Positions 820 to 48,850 of a stretch of DNA of 64,000 bases are shown here, piece by piece; positions within the stretch are counted from its first letter, which is position 1, and each line of letters starts with the position of its first letter. A model generated the notes under the pieces. The model ran no database searches, had not been told where the DNA came from, and saw nothing but the letters and a program-made list of their open reading frames with translations. The stretch comes from Liolophura sinensis (lineage: Eukaryota; Mollusca; Polyplacophora; Chitonida; Chitonidae), in NCBI RefSeq assembly GCF_032854445.1, contig NC_088299.1, positions 5,555,001 to 5,619,000 on the forward strand, read 5' to 3'. Both the position numbers and the translations under genes were made by a program.

Positions 820-3800
820 CAGAGATTTCTGTGTCAGAGCCTCACTCTCCAGCTGCTTATCTTTAAGTTTCTTTGCGCATTTCTGAGCCTCATCAATTTG
901 TCGCAGAGCTTGACTGAGGTTGCCATGGCGCTGGTACATACATGACAAGGCAAACTGACAGCGGTATAAGTCATCAAACAGCTGGAATTTTCTGTGTAAA
1001 GTATAAAAAAAATTCCTCCTCTTACAAAAAACAAACAAGTGACAGCTACATTTACACTGAATATTCTCATAATGACAGAAAAAAAAGTGAACTACAATAA
1101 AATAAAACATCTTCTTAACAATTCAGACTAAACAGTACAACAAAATGTCTTTTAACAATTCAGTTTTAAATTTTAGTCCAAATTTCTTCATTCTTCTTTA
1201 TAAAAGTAACATGATCTTTTTAGAGCATTAGTTTTTGATGGTCCACCATCAATGATCAATTTCCTAATTACAGCAATTAGCAGTCCATGTGACCCAAAAG
1301 CCACTAATGGTTATGCAGGGATGAGACAGACACTAGGATGAAGAGAAAACTATACAGCATAAACCATAATTTTGTCATTTTTAGCATTTCTGCATAAATT
1401 CTGAACATTTTTTGTAAAAAAATAAAGAGGAATTTCTCCAAATAGGAGGACAAATCTCATGCTTGTTATGGTAGGTGGATAATTACTGATGTAGGTTCAA
1501 TAAATACAGTCTCACCAATGCGGTGGCTGTGAGTTCAAGTCCAGCTCATGCTGGCTTCCTCTCCGGCCGTAAGTGGGAAGGTCTGCCAGCAACCTGCGGA
1601 TGGTCGTGGGTTTCCCCCGGGCTCTGCCCGGTTTCCACCCACCATAATGCTGGCCGCCGTCGTATAAGTGAAATATTCTTGAGTACGGCGTAAAACACCA
1701 ATCAAATAAATAAATAAATAAATCAATAAATACAGCCTAATGTCCACACAAAACCATTTTGTTACAATCATTAACATCTCATTTTATGTGTATGAGCAAA
1801 ACAGAAATGTCATATTTTGTAGCTGTTAACCGCAGACAAGCTGCATATCCAAAATAGTAAATGTGGAATCATATGTTTGGATTTCACAGTGACAATAAGA
1901 ACAGGGGAGTTTCGAGTTAGATCTCTTTTATCGTTTAAGTAAAAAAACAGTCCATCTGTATCATGTGACCTGTGAAAATATAAGGCAACTATTTTTGATC
2001 ACATTTACTATAACATGGGCATCTGAAAAAGTTGGACAAAAAGTAAGTATGACTACACAAATGTTCAGGAGCTGAACATTTGTGAACTAGAGAAATGAGA
2101 AATCAAGAAAGAGGTGCCAATTGTGCCTCTGGAACATGGTGAAGCTGTCACGACCATCCGCAGGTTACTGAAAGACCTTCCCATGTATGGCCTGAGAGGA
2201 AGCCAGCACGAGCTGGACTTGAACTCACAATACATTTAAACGATGCTAGCTGAATACAACATGATCTCAAAACAAAGTCAGAATCAGATAGTTCATTTTA
2301 CAAAACACCTGTACACACTTACTCATTTTTGTCAATAGCCTGCTTTATGTAGTCTGCTGCTAGCTTCAATTCTCCCCGCCCATCATATATCAGACCTGTC
2401 AAAATAAATAGTACTTTTGATCAAACACATTCAACATTAAACTGTTGTTAAATCACTGGATCAGAAATAATGCCCAAACATTATATTTGTAACCAGGTAA
2501 GATCATCATTAAAAATATGATCACTGGGTGTAAAGATTTTACTGACATTTTCATAGAAGTCTATTTTCTCAAAGTGTGAATTTCTCTAAAATCTTAATAT
2601 ATTTCATTCTCCAGAATAAGAAAAATTTGTTCCCTACCAACCAATCTTCTTTTTCTTGACATTTTCTGTATAAACACTTAAGATCATTGTTTAACAACAT
2701 GTTTGTTGCATGTACCCTGACTGACTCTTCCACAACTCTAAAGTTTTTATAGGGGTTTAATATGAGATTTTTCAAAATAATTTTCTCTTTAGTCATGTTA
2801 ATTTTCTATCTCTGTCCTATCTTTATCATAAACCAAGATAAAAAAAGAACTCAGTGCTGCTTGATCCTATTTTTCTGGTAATAAGTTACGCCAAACAAAA
2901 TATTTTTTAAGGATTGACTAAACTACAGTCTTGAAAATTGTCTATTTCCAAAATGGTCATGTTCCATCCAACAAACATTTTTTAAGAATGGCCTGAGTTG
3001 CTGTAAAAGACCCCATAAGATACTGTACAATTACCTAGATTCAACAGAAGGCGGGCTTTCATCTGCATGTGTTCATCTCTCTTGATGGACCCCTTCAGCT
3101 TTTCGCACACCTCCAAGCTGTGGATGAAGGCCTTCTCCGCCTGCTGGGATGCCTTGTTCACAGCGGGTCTCTCTCGTACTCCCTCAGATTTCAGCAAATA
3201 AGTCCGCCCTAAAGTTGCCCATGCCCGCTGCTCTTCTAATGTATCACCACACACTTTTGCTAATTCCAAGTAACGATTCTGATGACTCAAGGCTTTCTCA
3301 AAGTCACCGATCTCTGAGAAGCATTCACCGATTTTGCGACATGCTATGGCAGAACCTATTCTATCATCCAATGCTTCGCTCAACGCAAGTTCTGAATAAT
3401 GCTCGGCAATCGCGTCTTGGTATAGTCCTGAAAAGTGAAATAAATGTGACAAAATAATTGACAGCAGAAGTTAAGTTGAGTAAGAAGGAAATGTCAGGTG
3501 TATATACCTTCCAAGTTACAGTTAGAACTGTGCACAATTTCGTGTGACAGATATATCCGTTTAACAGTTCTATGGAAAATCAGATGACATATACATGTAT
3601 CTAATAAAGATTTATATATTTATTTGGTTTGTGTTTTATGCCATACTCAAGAGTATTTCACTTATTCAGCAACGGCCAGCATTATGGTGGGCAGAAACTG
3701 AGCAGAGAATGGGGGCAAAACTCACGACTATGTACTAAAGAATGTGTAAAATAGGTAAAATGCCAGGTGAATTACTCAGAGAAAAGAATCACTATTTGTA

Positions 3801-10503: not shown

Positions 10504-11296
10504 CAATCAAATAAATACATAGTCGTGACTGTATGTAGAATGCATACATATAGTAGACTTGGTACTGGTAGAGCTTCAGTTGACAGTATCCATAGCATCA
10601 TGTTCAGGCCTGTGTGATTTATGTGGAATTTCAGGTTTGATGTGTAAACTAAAAATCATAATAAGTTTGCAAACAAAACAGACTACGTGATGCACTGATA
10701 CTGTTTTCCTTGCAATATATTGCAGAAACAGTACAGTAGTAGGCACGCTCGCTATTCTTTATTACCACACGAGAGTGCCTTGTGGTGCTCTGGGCATCTG
10801 TGGTTGTGAGGAGGTTGAAGTACATAAAGTGAAGTGGGATGTGTGGTGTTCGACTTCAACCACAAGACACAAAAGATGCAGGTTCAACCTGGATTTCACT
10901 GCTCATCTCACAATTGGGCAAGCAATTGTGGTGAATTGATATAACCAGGCAACAGTGACAGTGATCTTTTGAGAACTTGTCTTCAACCAGTATGGGTTAT
11001 TTATCTACATATGTCCATATATATGTTACATGTTGGACAGTTCGGAAGTATAATCAAGGCAACAGTTGGTGGTTTACCCCAGGCACTCTAGTCCCTTACT
11101 TCCACAAAGCTTACCACAGTTGCATATGTATATGAAATTCCAGCAGAGAAAATATTGCTTTCAAACATTATTAAACCAACTACAAGTTATGTGCTAAAAT
11201 GAAATTATAAGGAAACTGTTAGTTGAATGTAAAATTTAACATCAGGTGATATTTTTTCTTACTTTGAGATTTTTGTATAATAACAAGTGTATAATC

Positions 11297-11311
11297 AATT
11301 TTGTTTTGTAG
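11297..11311 (+). promoter_or_regulatory. BBS10 coding-exon splice acceptor
   Basis: A pyrimidine-rich run ending in TAG just before tttgggtaaatc marks the 5' edge of the BBS10 coding exon. It explains why the reading frame extends upstream of the likely start codon, and it implies a spliced 5'UTR. Confidence 0.6.
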
Positions 11312-11355
11312 TTTGGGTAAATCAAGAACATATGCGACATATTCAAAGAATCACA

Positions 11356-13152
11356 ATGGACATGGAGTTAGAGACATCACTTTCTATCAGCAGAACTCTA
11401 TGTCGGGTTGTAGAAGAAGCGTTTGGTCCCCATGGTGGAAAGTCTATGATAACCTCTGCGACTGGCAAAGTCCTCGTGACAACAAACGGAGGAACAATTC
11501 TGAAGGCTCTAAACCTAAGTCATCCTGTGGCTAAACTGATAGTTACATCGGCCATCCGTCATTCGGATGTGAATGGCTGTGGCAGTAAAACTTTTGTTCT
11601 ATATGTGACAGGTGCTTTGGAAACAGTTCATAATATAACCAACAAACATTGTCACTCACAAAACAATAGTTTTGTCAGAAAGGCGTTTATTTTGAGGCTG
11701 TCTGAGAATTTGAAAAGGTTAACATACAGGCATATTGCCACAGAACTAGAAAAGTATTTAATAAGTTCAAAAATAATAGAACGTCTCAGCAGCTCTAGGT
11801 TGCGAGAGGTTGCCACCAATCTGATCCATACACAGTTATCTCCCTTGTTCTTCCCAGGCGTTGCAGAGCACCTCACAAAGTTGATGACTGAATTTTTAAA
11901 CCAAGGTGGCAGTGGTCCAACTGACTTCATTAGGAATGCAAGACTAGTTGCTGAGAATTTTCATGAGTTGTGTATAAAGGTTGACTGCCAGAGTTACATG
12001 GAATCGGTGTGCTCAGAGGGAATTTTGATAAGAAGAGAATTCACAGTTCAACCCCCTGCTGAAAGCCATGGGTCTGTTAGACTTCTCATTTTAAAGTGTT
12101 CGCTGGATGACCATAACAGGGGACATTCAGATTCTCACAGGATTCGAATAAACCATGTAGATGTGCTGCACGATTCACTTGACCAAAAGCAGCGTCAAGC
12201 GGACAATTTCTTAGCATTTTGTCTAAAACATAAAATTGGTTTAATTTTGAGTACGGAAAAGTTGCTTCTGTCTGTCGTGCACAAATGCAGGTTGAGTAAC
12301 ATTGCTCTTGTGGAGTATGTTCCAGATTCTGATGCAGATAAACTGGCACGGTTGTGTCATATACAGCCGGTACACAGACTGACAGAGCTTTGCAGTGATG
12401 ACTTTTGTGAAGTGTCTTCATTGAAAAGTGCAGTCTTTGGAGGAAGACATTTTGTTGAAATCCGTGTTGGTAATGCCATGTCAAGCGTGTTGGCAAAGCA
12501 GCTTGTGCTCTGTGGACCAACTGAAGGACTTTGCGATCAGGTGTCTCAGGCTCTACACAAAGCGTCAAAAGTCTTAACGTGGGTGCAGAATACTGGGTGC
12601 CAGTTTCGTGAGGATAAAAATTCAGAAGTGGCAGTGGAACACGACACAACAAGCAAGTGCAATGAGGATAATATTAACAGTGAAAACTATGCCTTTGGGA
12701 ATACAGCAGACATGAATACTGCCTACCCACACCAAAATCTAGACTGGTTATTAATTCAAGGTGGAGGAACTTTTGAAATGTTTGTGGAGACATTTCTCAA
12801 CAAGATTTGTGTCAATGACGATACGCATAAGCTAGCCTGTGAAGTTGTCAGAGGAGCAGTTTTTGAAGTGTTGCATACGCTGTATGGTAATATTCAACGA
12901 AGTTCAGACCAGTTGGCTAACAGATGTTACCTTAAATTGTACAAAGACTTTGGCCTCAAGGTAGACAAAGGTGAAGTTGTAGGCTTAGACAGTGGGACAG
13001 TTGAACTGGGAAGATTGTCAGACATTTTGGAGCCGCTTTCATGTAAAATTGCCTCTTTGGTAAAGGCACTGGAGTTAGTCTGCCAAATTTTAAGGATTGA
13101 TTCCATTGTCAGTGTAAGAAAACTTCAAAATGTGTCTCCTGGTAGTCCATAA
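11356..13152 (+). CDS. BBS10: BBS10, group II chaperonin-like Bardet-Biedl protein
   Basis: One long exon encodes 598 aa from the ATG at 11356 (context cacaATGG). The frame stays open upstream to 11312, where ttttgttttgtag is a clear splice acceptor, so a noncoding 5' exon probably lies nearer the shared promoter. Chaperonin/BBS10 signatures: GPHGGKS (residues 24-30), TNGGTILKALNLSHPVAKLI (43-62), a P-loop-region GCGSKTF (74-80), LVLCGPTEGL in the middle and WLLIQGGGTFEMF near the C terminus, ending in a DSIVSVRKLQ segment. Family role: with BBS6, BBS12 and CCT it assembles the BBSome for ciliary trafficking. Oddity: the chaperonin GDG catalytic Asp position is Cys (TGT, 11578-11580). An ATG at 11332 could be an alternative start. 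Confidence 0.88.
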   Translation: MDMELETSLSISRTLCRVVEEAFGPHGGKSMITSATGKVLVTTNGGTILKALNLSHPVAKLIVTSAIRHSDVNGCGSKTFVLYVTGALETVHNITNKHCHSQNNSFVRKAFILRLSENLKRLTYRHIATELEKYLISSKIIERLSSSRLREVATNLIHTQLSPLFFPGVAEHLTKLMTEFLNQGGSGPTDFIRNARLVAENFHELCIKVDCQSYMESVCSEGILIRREFTVQPPAESHGSVRLLILKCSLDDHNRGHSDSHRIRINHVDVLHDSLDQKQRQADNFLAFCLKHKIGLILSTEKLLLSVVHKCRLSNIALVEYVPDSDADKLARLCHIQPVHRLTELCSDDFCEVSSLKSAVFGGRHFVEIRVGNAMSSVLAKQLVLCGPTEGLCDQVSQALHKASKVLTWVQNTGCQFREDKNSEVAVEHDTTSKCNEDNINSENYAFGNTADMNTAYPHQNLDWLLIQGGGTFEMFVETFLNKICVNDDTHKLACEVVRGAVFEVLHTLYGNIQRSSDQLANRCYLKLYKDFGLKVDKGEVVGLDSGTVELGRLSDILEPLSCKIASLVKALELVCQILRIDSIVSVRKLQNVSPGSP

Positions 13153-45333: not shown

Positions 45334-46741
45334 ATGTTAAAGTTGTTTGTTGCTTTGCTGGCATTCGTTTGTGCTGTGGTGGGTGAGTGAAGATTTTCTG
45401 GTATCTTAACTGTGTTAAACTATGGAGTTAAAATCACTTGGCTAAAATGTGTAATGTGTAATGTTTCGTGCATGTCGTCAGCAAACTCTCTGCTGGAACG
45501 GCGAAATTATGGCTCTGTTTTCATATATTTTATCTGGGCATACACACTGCTGATGTGACATGAATTTTACATACATGATATGACCTGAGAATGTGGTGGG
45601 GCCACATGTAATGTTTGTTTTTCAGCCGTTGAATGGTGACACTCGGCCCCAGTCATTCTCTATCCTGGGGTTACGCATATTGTTGAAGTGTGAGACTATT
45701 TATTACTTAGTGTTTTATCCGTTAGACAAGTTGCCGCTGGCATTTTGCCATGTATCGTAGAAAACTTTGACACAAAACAAGCGTTAGTTTGATTGGAACC
45801 AGCTACCTCATTGACCAACGCTTAAGGAACATTCACCAAAAAAAAAAAAAAAAAAAAAAGAACAGCACTATCCTCGGTCACGTCTTAGTCGTATATTGAA
45901 ATCAGATTTTTGCCATACCGAAGACACCAAACTCGACGCTCCATTCAGTCGCCTACTTGATCCTATTCATCCTATGTTGATTGACATGCGACGGCGTGCC
46001 AAAACTACCACGGTACTGAAATCCTAGGTATGACTTGATTCGGTATTGAACCCCGGATCTACGGTTTACTAATCAAACCAGTGTAGGTATACACGTACAC
46101 ATTCTTCTGTTATTGATTTCAGGTGATCAGTGCACCACATATCACCACCCTAAGTACGGCAGTGTTGGGAAATGCATGCAGAAATCATGCTGTGCCTATG
46201 GTACCTACATATCAAACCTATGTCCCGGCGACAGCAACGTCAAATGTTGTTTTTCCCACAGCACGTGTGGGGAGGGGTCGGTAGGTATGTATCCTTAAGG
46301 AAGCCAAGAATTATCATACAACAGTGATTTACCTTAAACTTTAATCCTTTTTTTTCTCATTCACGTATAACAGAATTTCTAAGATGTACCGAGACACATG
46401 CCGAGACATTTGTACATTTCTGTGTTGAAATCACTAAATATCTGGGTTAAACCACGGAAATGTTGGCCCCTTTTCAGGTACAGGAGGTTCTGGCTGTAGC
46501 GGAAGTCGTCATTACAGTGCACGAGGGACGGCTTATTATCCCGATCCCAGTCCTTTAGAAGGGGGATACAATGATAGACATGGTGTTAAGCTGAGGACGC
46601 TCCAGGTAAGGAACTCTCCCAATTTCGTTGACACTTTATTCATAGTTCTTAAATACTGTTTGAATATGCCGGTACTCCTTATTCATTGCAAGTCATTCGC
46701 TTGGCATGTTTACCGATTTAATAGATTTAAAAGAGCCTAGC

Positions 46742-46773
<32 letters not shown>

Positions 46774-48080
46774 ATGCCTATGATGACTGCACGTTGCAAT
46801 CATTGTACTTTTTCGACCTGATTTTCCAGGATTTTCTCGAGGGCTCTGCTAGCTACGTCAGCGTGGCAATGGATCAATACCTGAACTTACCCTACGGTAC
46901 TATCCTCTGCATTCCGGAACTGGATCGCAAATATGGCAAGCACATCATTTTTAAGGTACCTCTTCCTGTACATGTAGATTGCAAACGGTAGATCCCGAGT
47001 TTAAATCCAAAATCGAGTCATACTTAAGACTTTAACATTGGTAATCATGGCACTGCATGTATCTTGCTTAGGGCTCAGGAAAATGAATTAGGCAAAGTTT
47101 TGGTCGGCCCAGTGTTAGTAGACTGTAACTTGCTCGGGCATCGTGTTTGGTGTCTTCTGCATGACTTTTTAGTGACACAGCACTATACGTGTGTTGTGTC
47201 ACTGGATATGTGAAAGACTACAGCATACTTGTATACAAAAGAATAAATAAAAGCAGCGACGATTGGTGAGTCCTGATCAGACTTTACTGATATGATCCAA
47301 AAAGTGTTCGAAGCGACGTTACATGATTTTCAGGACCATGCACATTGAGTTGACTTTCAGTAACGAGGAAGAGGATTATTGATCTTTCTGTTTGCTTGAG
47401 TTTATCTAACGACAGGTGGAGGTTTATGGTAATCGATAATTTGGACATGACATAGCAGATTTAAACTGTTTCACTTCACCGATGAACACACTTTATAAAG
47501 GTAAACGACCGTTGAAAATAACTTTTACTGAATAGACATTTGTCACATTTAAATCCTCTTATAATAATTTTATGATAATTAATCGTGAAACAAACTTTGA
47601 CTGAATAAAGACTGCTGGCATTCGTATCCATCACGACTGAACTTGCTATACATCTCTGACGCGCTAGAATACAGAGTGAGCGTGAGAGAAAGCGTCTGTA
47701 CAATGCCCGAAGTGGCAAGGTCAACCATCACGGAAGCAAAAGCAAACGATGGCTGTGAGTTAATGCGGAGATACGTTCGCGCGAGAAATAATTTGCATAT
47801 TTGCGTTTGCTTTACTCAGTTGCGATAATCTTGAAACTTCAGGTATACATAGAAGACAAAGATTGGTTATTTCAATTAGTGTACTATTTCTAAACTAGGC
47901 AAGTTACCTTTTGTTCCCTGAGTAATTCTGCTACTTTCGTTGAATATATTTATCCAGGTTGTGGACACCGGAAGTGCTTTTAACCACAAAGGTTACAGTC
48001 GAATTGACATCTGTGTTCGAGATCAGCAGCATTCCTATGACGCGGCCATCAACAATCATATCACGCTCGTCTTCAAGTAA
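45334..48080 (+). CDS. Secreted Cys-rich + 3D (double-psi beta-barrel) domain protein, 5 exons
   Basis: Exons 45334-45382, 46123-46284, 46478-46605, 46830-46955, 47958-48080; all GT-AG with matching phases, giving ~195 aa. Residues 1-16 are a signal peptide (MLKLFVALLAFVCAVVG). Residues ~18-70 hold eight Cys: DQCTTYHHPKYGSVGKC, SCC, NLCPG, VKCC, STC; this GxC...CPG...VKCC pattern resembles N-terminal modules of some eukaryotic peptidoglycan-active proteins (memory-based). A Gly/Ser linker follows. The C-terminal half fits the bacterial 3D domain: SYVSVAMDQYLNLPYGTILC, then VVDTGSAFNHKGYSRIDICV, with Asp residues at the DTG and RID positions characteristic of MltA/3D folds. Likely extracellular; a role in binding or cleaving bacterial wall glycan is inference. 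Codon use and introns look native. Confidence 0.8.
45838..45859. repeat. Poly-A tract
   Basis: About 21 A in a row within intron 1 of the 3D-domain gene. Could be the remnant of a retroposed sequence but no source is recognisable next to it. Confidence 0.8.
46741..46771. repeat. (AAT)n microsatellite
   Basis: About ten AAT/ATA units in intron 3 of the 3D-domain gene. Confidence 0.9.
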
Positions 48081-48085
48081 ATAAA
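48080..48085 (+). terminator. Poly(A) signal overlapping the stop codon of the 3D-domain gene
   Basis: AAGTAAATAAAC contains AATAAA starting at the last base of the TAA stop. If used, the 3'UTR would be only 20-40 nt, unusually compact. Confidence 0.4.
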
Positions 48086-48209: not shown

Positions 48210-48345
48210 GCTGTAAGGCCATTCACTCATGTTGGTTTCCTCTGCAGTCGTACGTGAGGAGGTTTGTCAGCAATTTGTCTATTGTTGTGGGTTTTCCGTG
48301 GGGCGTACCCGGTTTCTTCAAACCATATTGCTAGCCACCATAAAT
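48210..48345 (+). repeat. MetaSINE-like family A, degenerate
   Basis: catgttggtttcctctgcag, ggaggtttgtcagcaatttg and tgtgggttttccgtggggcg follow family-A order with many substitutions; an old copy. Confidence 0.65.
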
Positions 48346-48354
48346 ATCCTGTAT

Positions 48355-48850
48355 CTATGGGTCGAAACAGACATTCGTACACCAGCCGTCAACCAATAAG
48401 GACCTTCCATGTCAATAATCACAAAACCAATTCCTGAAACGACGTTTATCACAAACCACCAATGAACTAAGAAAGTACATAAAGTACAAAATTAGGACGG
48501 AATCATGCAAAGACAAGCGGTCAACACTTTTGAATGATGTTAGAAAGGCGCAAGGTTTTTCCTAGGCGCAATGAGTGAATGAGTATTCAAATAGTATACC
48601 ATGCTAGTATAAGAGATGTCGATAGTAAAATATGTGTCTTAGTTGCCATTTGATTGCAACAGTTCCTGTATCCGACGTAGCGATCTAGTTCAACACGATG
48701 AATATACATTCTCTGGCCAGGGACGCTTGACACTGTGTCCACATTTATCAACTTATGTCGTTGATTGAAATCATCATATCACAAGGGATTTAGCAAATGG
48801 TACAAGGCGAGATATGTAATGTACAGTCATGTATTGGTGTTCAAGTAAGG
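48355..48850 (+). repeat. Interspersed repeat E, downstream copy
   Basis: gaaacagacattcgtacacc, accaatgaactaagaaagta, aaaattaggacggaatcatg, ttcaacacgatgaatataca and acaaggcgagatatgtaatg, colinear with 43880-44460. Confidence 0.7.

Follow-up and report, generated by a model that had tools for sequence, protein, structure and literature searches.

A probable 3D-family domain, split by introns and placed behind a cysteine-rich module, in a predicted secreted protein of the chiton Liolophura sinensis

A five-exon gene of the chiton Liolophura sinensis, at 45334..48080 on the forward strand of the window (the whole 64,000-nucleotide stretch of DNA that was analysed), encodes a protein whose C-terminal half is very probably a 3D domain. 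This domain is best read as being of the MltA/YuiC lytic transglycosylase kind, and as belonging to a subfamily found here in viral contigs. Because the C-terminal half is about half identical to a protein encoded in a lysis-like block of phage genes, the animal lineage probably took over a wall-cutting enzyme. The fuller account that we favor, with a probability of roughly 0.55, is that a phage-type wall-cutting domain was acquired horizontally, became split by introns, was joined to a secreted cysteine module, and is used against bacteria.

Gene structure and locus

As an earlier note on this DNA had proposed, the gene is intact. With splicing predicted from the sequence, five exons bordered throughout by GT-AG join into an uninterrupted frame of 195 aa plus a stop codon. 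The features of the gene are these:

45334..45382, + strand: exon 1, start codon and signal-like peptide (residues 1-17), ending in phase 1; read from the sequence and its hydrophobic stretch
46123..46284, + strand: exon 2, cysteine-rich module (residues 17-71), phase 1 on both sides; sequence, with genome relatives at E 0.002 to 0.011
46478..46605, + strand: exon 3, start of the probable 3D domain, GTAYYP with Thr88 (46528-46530) and the subfamily motif PLEGGYNDRHG; sequence and alignments
46830..46955, + strand: exon 4, YVSVAMD with Asp128 (46872-46874), and LPYGT; sequence and alignments
47958..48080, + strand: exon 5, VVDTG with Asp158 (47964-47966), RID with Asp172 (48006-48008), and the stop codon; sequence and alignments
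48080..48085, + strand: AATAAA hexamer sharing the last base of the stop codon, possibly the poly(A) signal; sequence

Exon 2, with a phase-1 intron on either side, is a symmetrical exon of the shuffling type, and the C-terminal domain is spread over exons 3-5, two introns interrupting it. In a six-frame search of the 609-Mb genome each of the five exons was matched once, and a second copy of the C-terminal domain was not found by that whole-genome search, in which a missing match does not show absence.

The gene lies on a 19.5-Mb contig. Eukaryotic-type ORFs with Pfam matches to Cpn60_TCP1 (E 6.5e-43) and TPR_12 (E 3.4e-10) stand 32-42 kb from it within the window. The Cpn60_TCP1 match belongs to an intron-free 622-aa ORF at window positions 11284-13152, a divergent chaperonin-like gene. 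An ORF on the minus strand at 7434-7964 matches DUF659 weakly, below the cut-off (E 0.0031), and is perhaps a transposase remnant. A repeat-like stretch near the gene, at 48217-48399, translates as LMLxSSxVVxExVCQ and similar; related stretches also lie near the cysteine-module genes L006, L007, L126, and L129 discussed below, and this is probably a dispersed repeat.

Assignment of the C-terminal half

The 3D hallmarks that the earlier note had pointed to, a DTG followed by RID, are present in the C-terminal half as D158 and D172. The profile search that it had suggested, for Pfam 3D/PF06725 or DPBB, gave no match for the protein (hereafter the query). The whole query drew no family from Pfam (E up to 10), PHROGs, or NCBIfam, and the C-terminal half again drew nothing; nor was there a Pfam match to PF00959 (GH24). 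A sequence search of the PDB with the query returned nothing better than E 0.3, and PF06725 run against the animal's own genome in six frames found no match, as may happen with a domain split over three exons.

Comparisons with generic 3D profiles span a range of outcomes. A profile built from 19 Bacillota 3D domains gave the query 1.9 bits and the best shuffle 7.8. On a home-made alignment score, tried at three gap settings, 75, 32, and 2 of 300 shuffles did as well as the query, the cheapest gaps giving the figure of 2. When the profile was broadened to take in viral as well as Bacillota 3D domains, the query's score was reached by 1 of 2000 shuffles; by hhalign it was reached by 3 of 1000, with TAY, VAxD, PxGT, DTG, and RID aligned. 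By these generic profiles alone the 3D assignment is suggestive. A pattern built from the catalytic motifs matches the query, 67 of 78 3D-family sequences, and none of 300,000 query shuffles, a result that is partly post hoc: a stricter version, which caught 65 of those 78 sequences and 0 of 200,000 shuffles, had not matched the query, and its first position was then loosened.

The more telling route passes through the viral-contig protein L151. A profile made from the query, L151, and a further viral relative, L131, aligned to nine Bacillota 3D domains with a probability of 79 and an E of 1.6e-5 (one comparison), the three aspartates in register. Two successive matches, that of the query to L151 and that of the L151-containing profile to 3D, connect the query with the 3D family.

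The residues on which catalysis would depend are in place. The available text of PMC4499186 names D162/D308 as the catalytic Asp of YuiC and MltA, with D129/D261 and D151/D297 as two further aspartates and T91/T99 as the residue that orients D162/D308. Our alignments put Asp172, Asp128, Asp158, and Thr88 of the query at these active-site positions, with Asp172 as the equivalent of the catalytic Asp. The three aspartates are invariant in 24 of the 24 rows of alignment A3, and all three together with the Thr are invariant among the query, L131, L145, and L136 in alignment A4; the Thr of L131, in line there, is out of line in alignment A5. In a second viral branch of the subfamily the position of Asp128 holds Asp in 3 of 9 sequences, Asn in 5, and Ser in 1, the other two aspartates being kept.

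Folded alone, the full 195-aa protein yielded an unusable model (pLDDT 39.2), and the C-terminal 123 residues modeled with 23 viral 3D rows reached pLDDT 78.9 and pTM 0.72. Foldseek ranked a diffocin baseplate chain (E 3.7e-4) first among solved structures for the latter model and YuiC (E 1.8e-3) next; an expansin and MltA followed closely, and kiwellin barrels were also listed. Among viral structure models, several named 3D proteins match it. VIA-align gives a tie between YuiC (Z 8.6 over 97 residues, 3.1 A, 26-27% identity) and the diffocin baseplate (Z 8.5), and places MltA-type rows at Z 5.8-7.2, barely above unrelated barrels such as NSF (Z 6.1). The alignment used for modeling contained 3D rows, and the model's match to 3D folds is therefore not independent of the assignment. 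The predicted double-psi beta barrel of YuiC/MltA type agrees with that assignment without proving it.

Relatives in viral contigs

There is a bacterial family with the motif DTGGAFxGKG, from which the pattern DTGxAFxxKG was taken for a scan of viral contigs. Eighteen stretches were found; four encode relatives of the query, and the other 14 are not relatives at E 0.01. Identity to the query is 49% over 96 aa for L131/L141 (E 5e-22) and 38% for each of L145 and L136 (E 4e-9 and 1e-8). The closest relative is L151, at 53% over residues 11-115 of the query domain (E 2e-33) in an alignment-based scan and at 50% over 113 aa (E 9e-40) pairwise, and this pairwise match is the strongest support for the reality of the domain. 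For L165 the corresponding figures are 37% (E 1e-16, scan) and 38% (E 4e-20, pairwise). The subfamily is carried by 13 distinct viral contigs, in stand-alone and fused forms, and most rows have an insertion between TAY and Y(V/I)xxA, in the form of EGG or similar, R.G, and T(L/V)xD.

When five of the viral relatives were scanned against Pfam, 3D was the sole match of L151 (E 0.0086, 16.7 bits, against a curated cut-off of 23.8), and L131, L145, L136, and L165 had no match. Their PHROG matches are weak and to families of unknown function (the L131 domain at E 0.013, L151 at E 0.12).

Gene context was examined for these five contigs, L131, L136, L145, L151, and L165. That of L151 is laid out as follows:

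IMGVR_UViG_3300048575_000506 (L151), 2486-2884: putative 3D protein, a stand-alone 132-aa ORF, with neighboring ORFs at 2109-2477 and 2881-3123

Both of the short flanking ORFs contain hydrophobic stretches as read by eye, and neither has a PHROG or Pfam family. One ORF after the L151 protein comes a portal-type gene (PHROG head-tail adaptor E 1.9e-14, portal 1.6e-10). Judged by these neighbors, the neighborhood looks like a candidate lysis cassette, one that PHROGs does not recognize. In L131 the domain forms the end of a 1001-aa ORF that is preceded by a short LysM-like ORF and that was read by eye as a baseplate protein, its PHROGs matches being weak; L165 and several other relatives lie within long ORFs of virion type, also by eye. 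Such lysis-type and virion-type contexts suggest that the domain sits where phages keep their wall-cutting enzymes. The earlier note's idea of kinship to the 3D family beyond animals therefore stands in part: relatives outside animals do exist, and those closest among the sequences found are lysis- or virion-type proteins of viral contigs rather than MltA, Rpf-analogue, or YabE-type wall proteins.

The second branch of the subfamily, L154-L162, has EGGY...GPDGK and is found in viral-contig ORFs, many of them long. A scan with the L131 domain matched L131's own two contigs only. Four of the eight loci of one scan (L166-L169) have just a short stretch in common, and L166 and L167, on being read, are without 3D motifs. 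Searches of named phages and plasmids for relatives of the query, L131, and L151 gave nothing but one phage match at E 0.3 and a match, H1, to a Burkholderia plasmid (E 4), the latter due to chance, with no 3D-like ORF at the matched place. A match in a Clostridiaceae contig, L010, is likewise ascribed to chance, as no listed ORF of at least 60 aa carries it. In 398 genomes belonging to the phylum of a Clostridiaceae MAG the subfamily is nearly absent, with two weak matches, of which L163 can be read as a 3D-like domain and L164 cannot.

The secreted start and the cysteine module

The N-terminus begins with a hydrophobic, signal-like stretch, MLKLFVALLAFVCAVVG, which was recognized by eye and agrees with the signal peptide of the earlier note, and the product is probably secreted. 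The cysteine module described there, GxC...CPG...VKCC, is present too, with seven cysteines from C20 to C59, plus C65. The module resembles the published rusticalin-type cysteine-rich repeats; its spacing is C34-x4-C39-C40-x9-C50-x7-C58-C59, against the C-x6-C-x6-7-C-x8-C-x7-CC given for those repeats in the available text of PMC6339383. The module has no match among solved structures or Pfam families.

Within the genome, a search with one module from contig C2 found nine places, the query exon among them at E 0.002, and the reverse search with the query found the C2 modules at E 0.011, a reciprocal result that suggests modest kinship. On contig C2, at 16.49-16.55 Mb, two modules stand before exons with M15-peptidase-like motifs, and in the C2 gene the second module is likewise bordered in phase 1 (splice sites read by eye). 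The pertinent places are:

C2:16492419-16523665 (L006, L007, L126, L130): two near-identical gene copies about 30 kb apart, each with two cysteine modules and M15-like motifs
C2:16549555-16549704 (L009): cysteine module, then lysozyme-like motifs VEG...TYDA and GIGFSL; from the motifs alone
C10:29383843-29383974 (L129): cysteine module, then lysozyme-like motifs YEG...AYDA and GVGFNL

In the second of the two C2 copies the first cysteine module is divided between reading frames. A further module is L128, and at L127 no domain was recognized downstream when the surroundings were read.

The labels given to these neighboring domains are weak. For the M15-like domain on C2 they come from the motifs SGDR, GRAADF, and GGVHLHIG and a PHROG endolysin match at E 0.34; Pfam, phage, and viral searches gave nothing, and its PDB matches were judged spurious. 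For the lysozyme-like domain on C10 they come from the motifs and PF00959 at E 0.2, beside another family at E 0.25, with nothing in PDB, phage, or viral searches. Tentatively, and with a little less than even confidence, we suggest that this lineage has a set of modular antibacterial proteins built on one shuffled cysteine exon. The exon would provide a secreted chassis to which three or more unrelated wall-cutting domains of phage type would be attached (3D here, M15-like on C2, lysozyme-like on C2 and C10). The 3D protein of this set, drawn from a phage lysis cassette, would then be the first MltA/YuiC-type enzyme to be described in an animal.

Comparison with known systems

The L151 protein is collinear with the query over the whole domain and has the same three Asp and Thr, but it is without signal peptide, cysteine module, or introns, and its lysis role is one suggested by its neighbors. 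YuiC/Sps proteins and MltA, which are lytic transglycosylases of the 3D family (PF06725), share with the query the catalytic, second, and third Asp, the Thr, and, in the model, the barrel. The query differs from them in its low identity to YuiC (26-27%), in the insertion between TAY and VAMD, and in having no Pfam match; YuiC and MltA, moreover, are bacterial. RlpA has a double-psi barrel and is of a family separate from 3D/MltA. The aphid rlpA genes resemble the case as proposed here in being horizontally acquired animal genes for a bacterial wall protein, as far as described in the available text of PMC9116674.

Closer in architecture are the proteins with rusticalin-type cysteine-rich repeats, which form N-terminal parts of eukaryotic proteins with prokaryote-type domains (main text of PMC7379824). 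In the survey reported there, 63 of the 124 cysteine-rich-repeat proteins with a recognized domain had wall-cutting domains, and the term 3D domain is not named in that main text. Like the query as predicted here, rusticalin and its kin combine a signal peptide, an N-terminal cysteine module, a C-terminal prokaryote-like wall-cutting domain, and introns (available text of PMC6339383 and PMC7379824). Compared with rusticalin, the query has a putative 3D domain and not an M15 peptidase, one module and not two, and C-x9-C-x7-CC in place of C-x8-C-x7-CC (PMC6339383, same text).

The co-opted phage lysozymes of bivalves (BCPL) likewise represent a phage-type wall-cutting domain in animals, with intron gain and fusion, but belong to another enzyme family (GH24), and the available text of PMC5303276 mentions no cysteine module. 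Placozoan PLys, as presented in the available text of PMC12855814, carries its cysteine-rich repeats in front of a bacterially derived wall-cutting domain; it differs from the query in being a GH23 lysozyme, whose cysteine part stabilizes the enzyme and is removed on maturation. By analogy with PLys (PMC12855814), the query's module may stabilize the enzyme, or it may bind the wall.

Origin, mechanism, and alternatives

A tree of 16 rows was built from the query (its sole animal row), 11 of the 13 viral contigs, and four outgroup rows; L153, whose contig carries a domain identical to that of L131, and L158, which is partial, were left out. In it L151, L131, and L165 join the query in one group (80/77, an open fork), which is separate from the remaining viral rows and the generic 3D domains. 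Support for this grouping is weak; the branch of L131 is long, and the letter composition of L151 odd. Of 149 genomes in the phylum to which a Clostridiaceae MAG belongs, 119 have PF06725, and a Bacillota 3D domain matched 231 phage records. As the family is widespread in bacteria and the sole animal copy found is intron-split, a phage or bacterial origin of the domain is the economical reading.

On this account, an ancestor would have acquired a lysis domain from a phage or bacterium, two introns would have been gained inside it, and it would have been fused to a preceding signal peptide and a shuffled cysteine module like the rusticalin repeats. Exported by way of the exon 1 signal peptide, the protein would use Asp172, with Thr88 positioning it, to cut the MurNAc-GlcNAc backbone and leave a 1,6-anhydro end, thereby weakening the walls of bacteria on mucosal or digestive surfaces; the disulphide-rich module of exon 2 would stabilize the protein or bind the wall. 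Catalytic antibacterial action is somewhat probable. The whole account can be no likelier than this step, which it includes.

The most serious competitor to catalysis, though one that we think rather unlikely, is a protein that kept the fold and the aspartates for binding or regulation (wall sensing, matrix, mucus) and does not cut peptidoglycan. Expansins and kiwellins offer parallels among other barrel proteins for such a binding or regulatory role, and it is in keeping with this that Foldseek lists expansin and kiwellin barrels for the model, and that the query is without the inserted second domain of MltA. All four active-site positions are nonetheless retained in the query, and YuiC, which is equally stripped down, is reported to be catalytically active in the available text of PMC4499186.

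The preferred direction of transfer, from phage or bacterium to animal, would be overturned if the gene were an old vertical eukaryotic one, or if phages had taken the domain from eukaryotes. The weak tree support for the query's place and its position as the only animal sequence compared leave some room for this, but we hold it to be improbable, given a subfamily that occurs in 13 distinct viral contigs in both stand-alone and fused form, a wider 3D family common in bacteria (119 of 149 genomes) and phages (231 records), and one animal copy found, with introns inside the domain. Bacterial or phage contamination of the assembly, to which the location of the domain's relatives in viral contigs might point, has very little to recommend it in the face of four GT-AG introns, a 19.5-Mb contig, and fusion to a module with relatives on C2 and C10; that eukaryotic-type Cpn60_TCP1 and TPR_12 ORFs sit in the same window is a further reason to consider it exceedingly improbable.

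Implications

Lysozymes and certain acquired peptidoglycan enzymes are known to be used by animals. Among the top matches listed for the open-licence literature, there was no report of an MltA/YuiC-type 3D enzyme in an animal. Co-option of phage-type wall-cutting domains by animals is itself already known (available text of PMC5303276 and, for rusticalin, PMC6339383). The present case points to a viral-contig 3D subfamily that Pfam barely detects and that includes a candidate stand-alone lysis protein. If active, the chiton protein would be another kind of wall-cutting enzyme for animal defense or digestion, and it would show the capture of phage lysis domains behind one secreted cysteine module.
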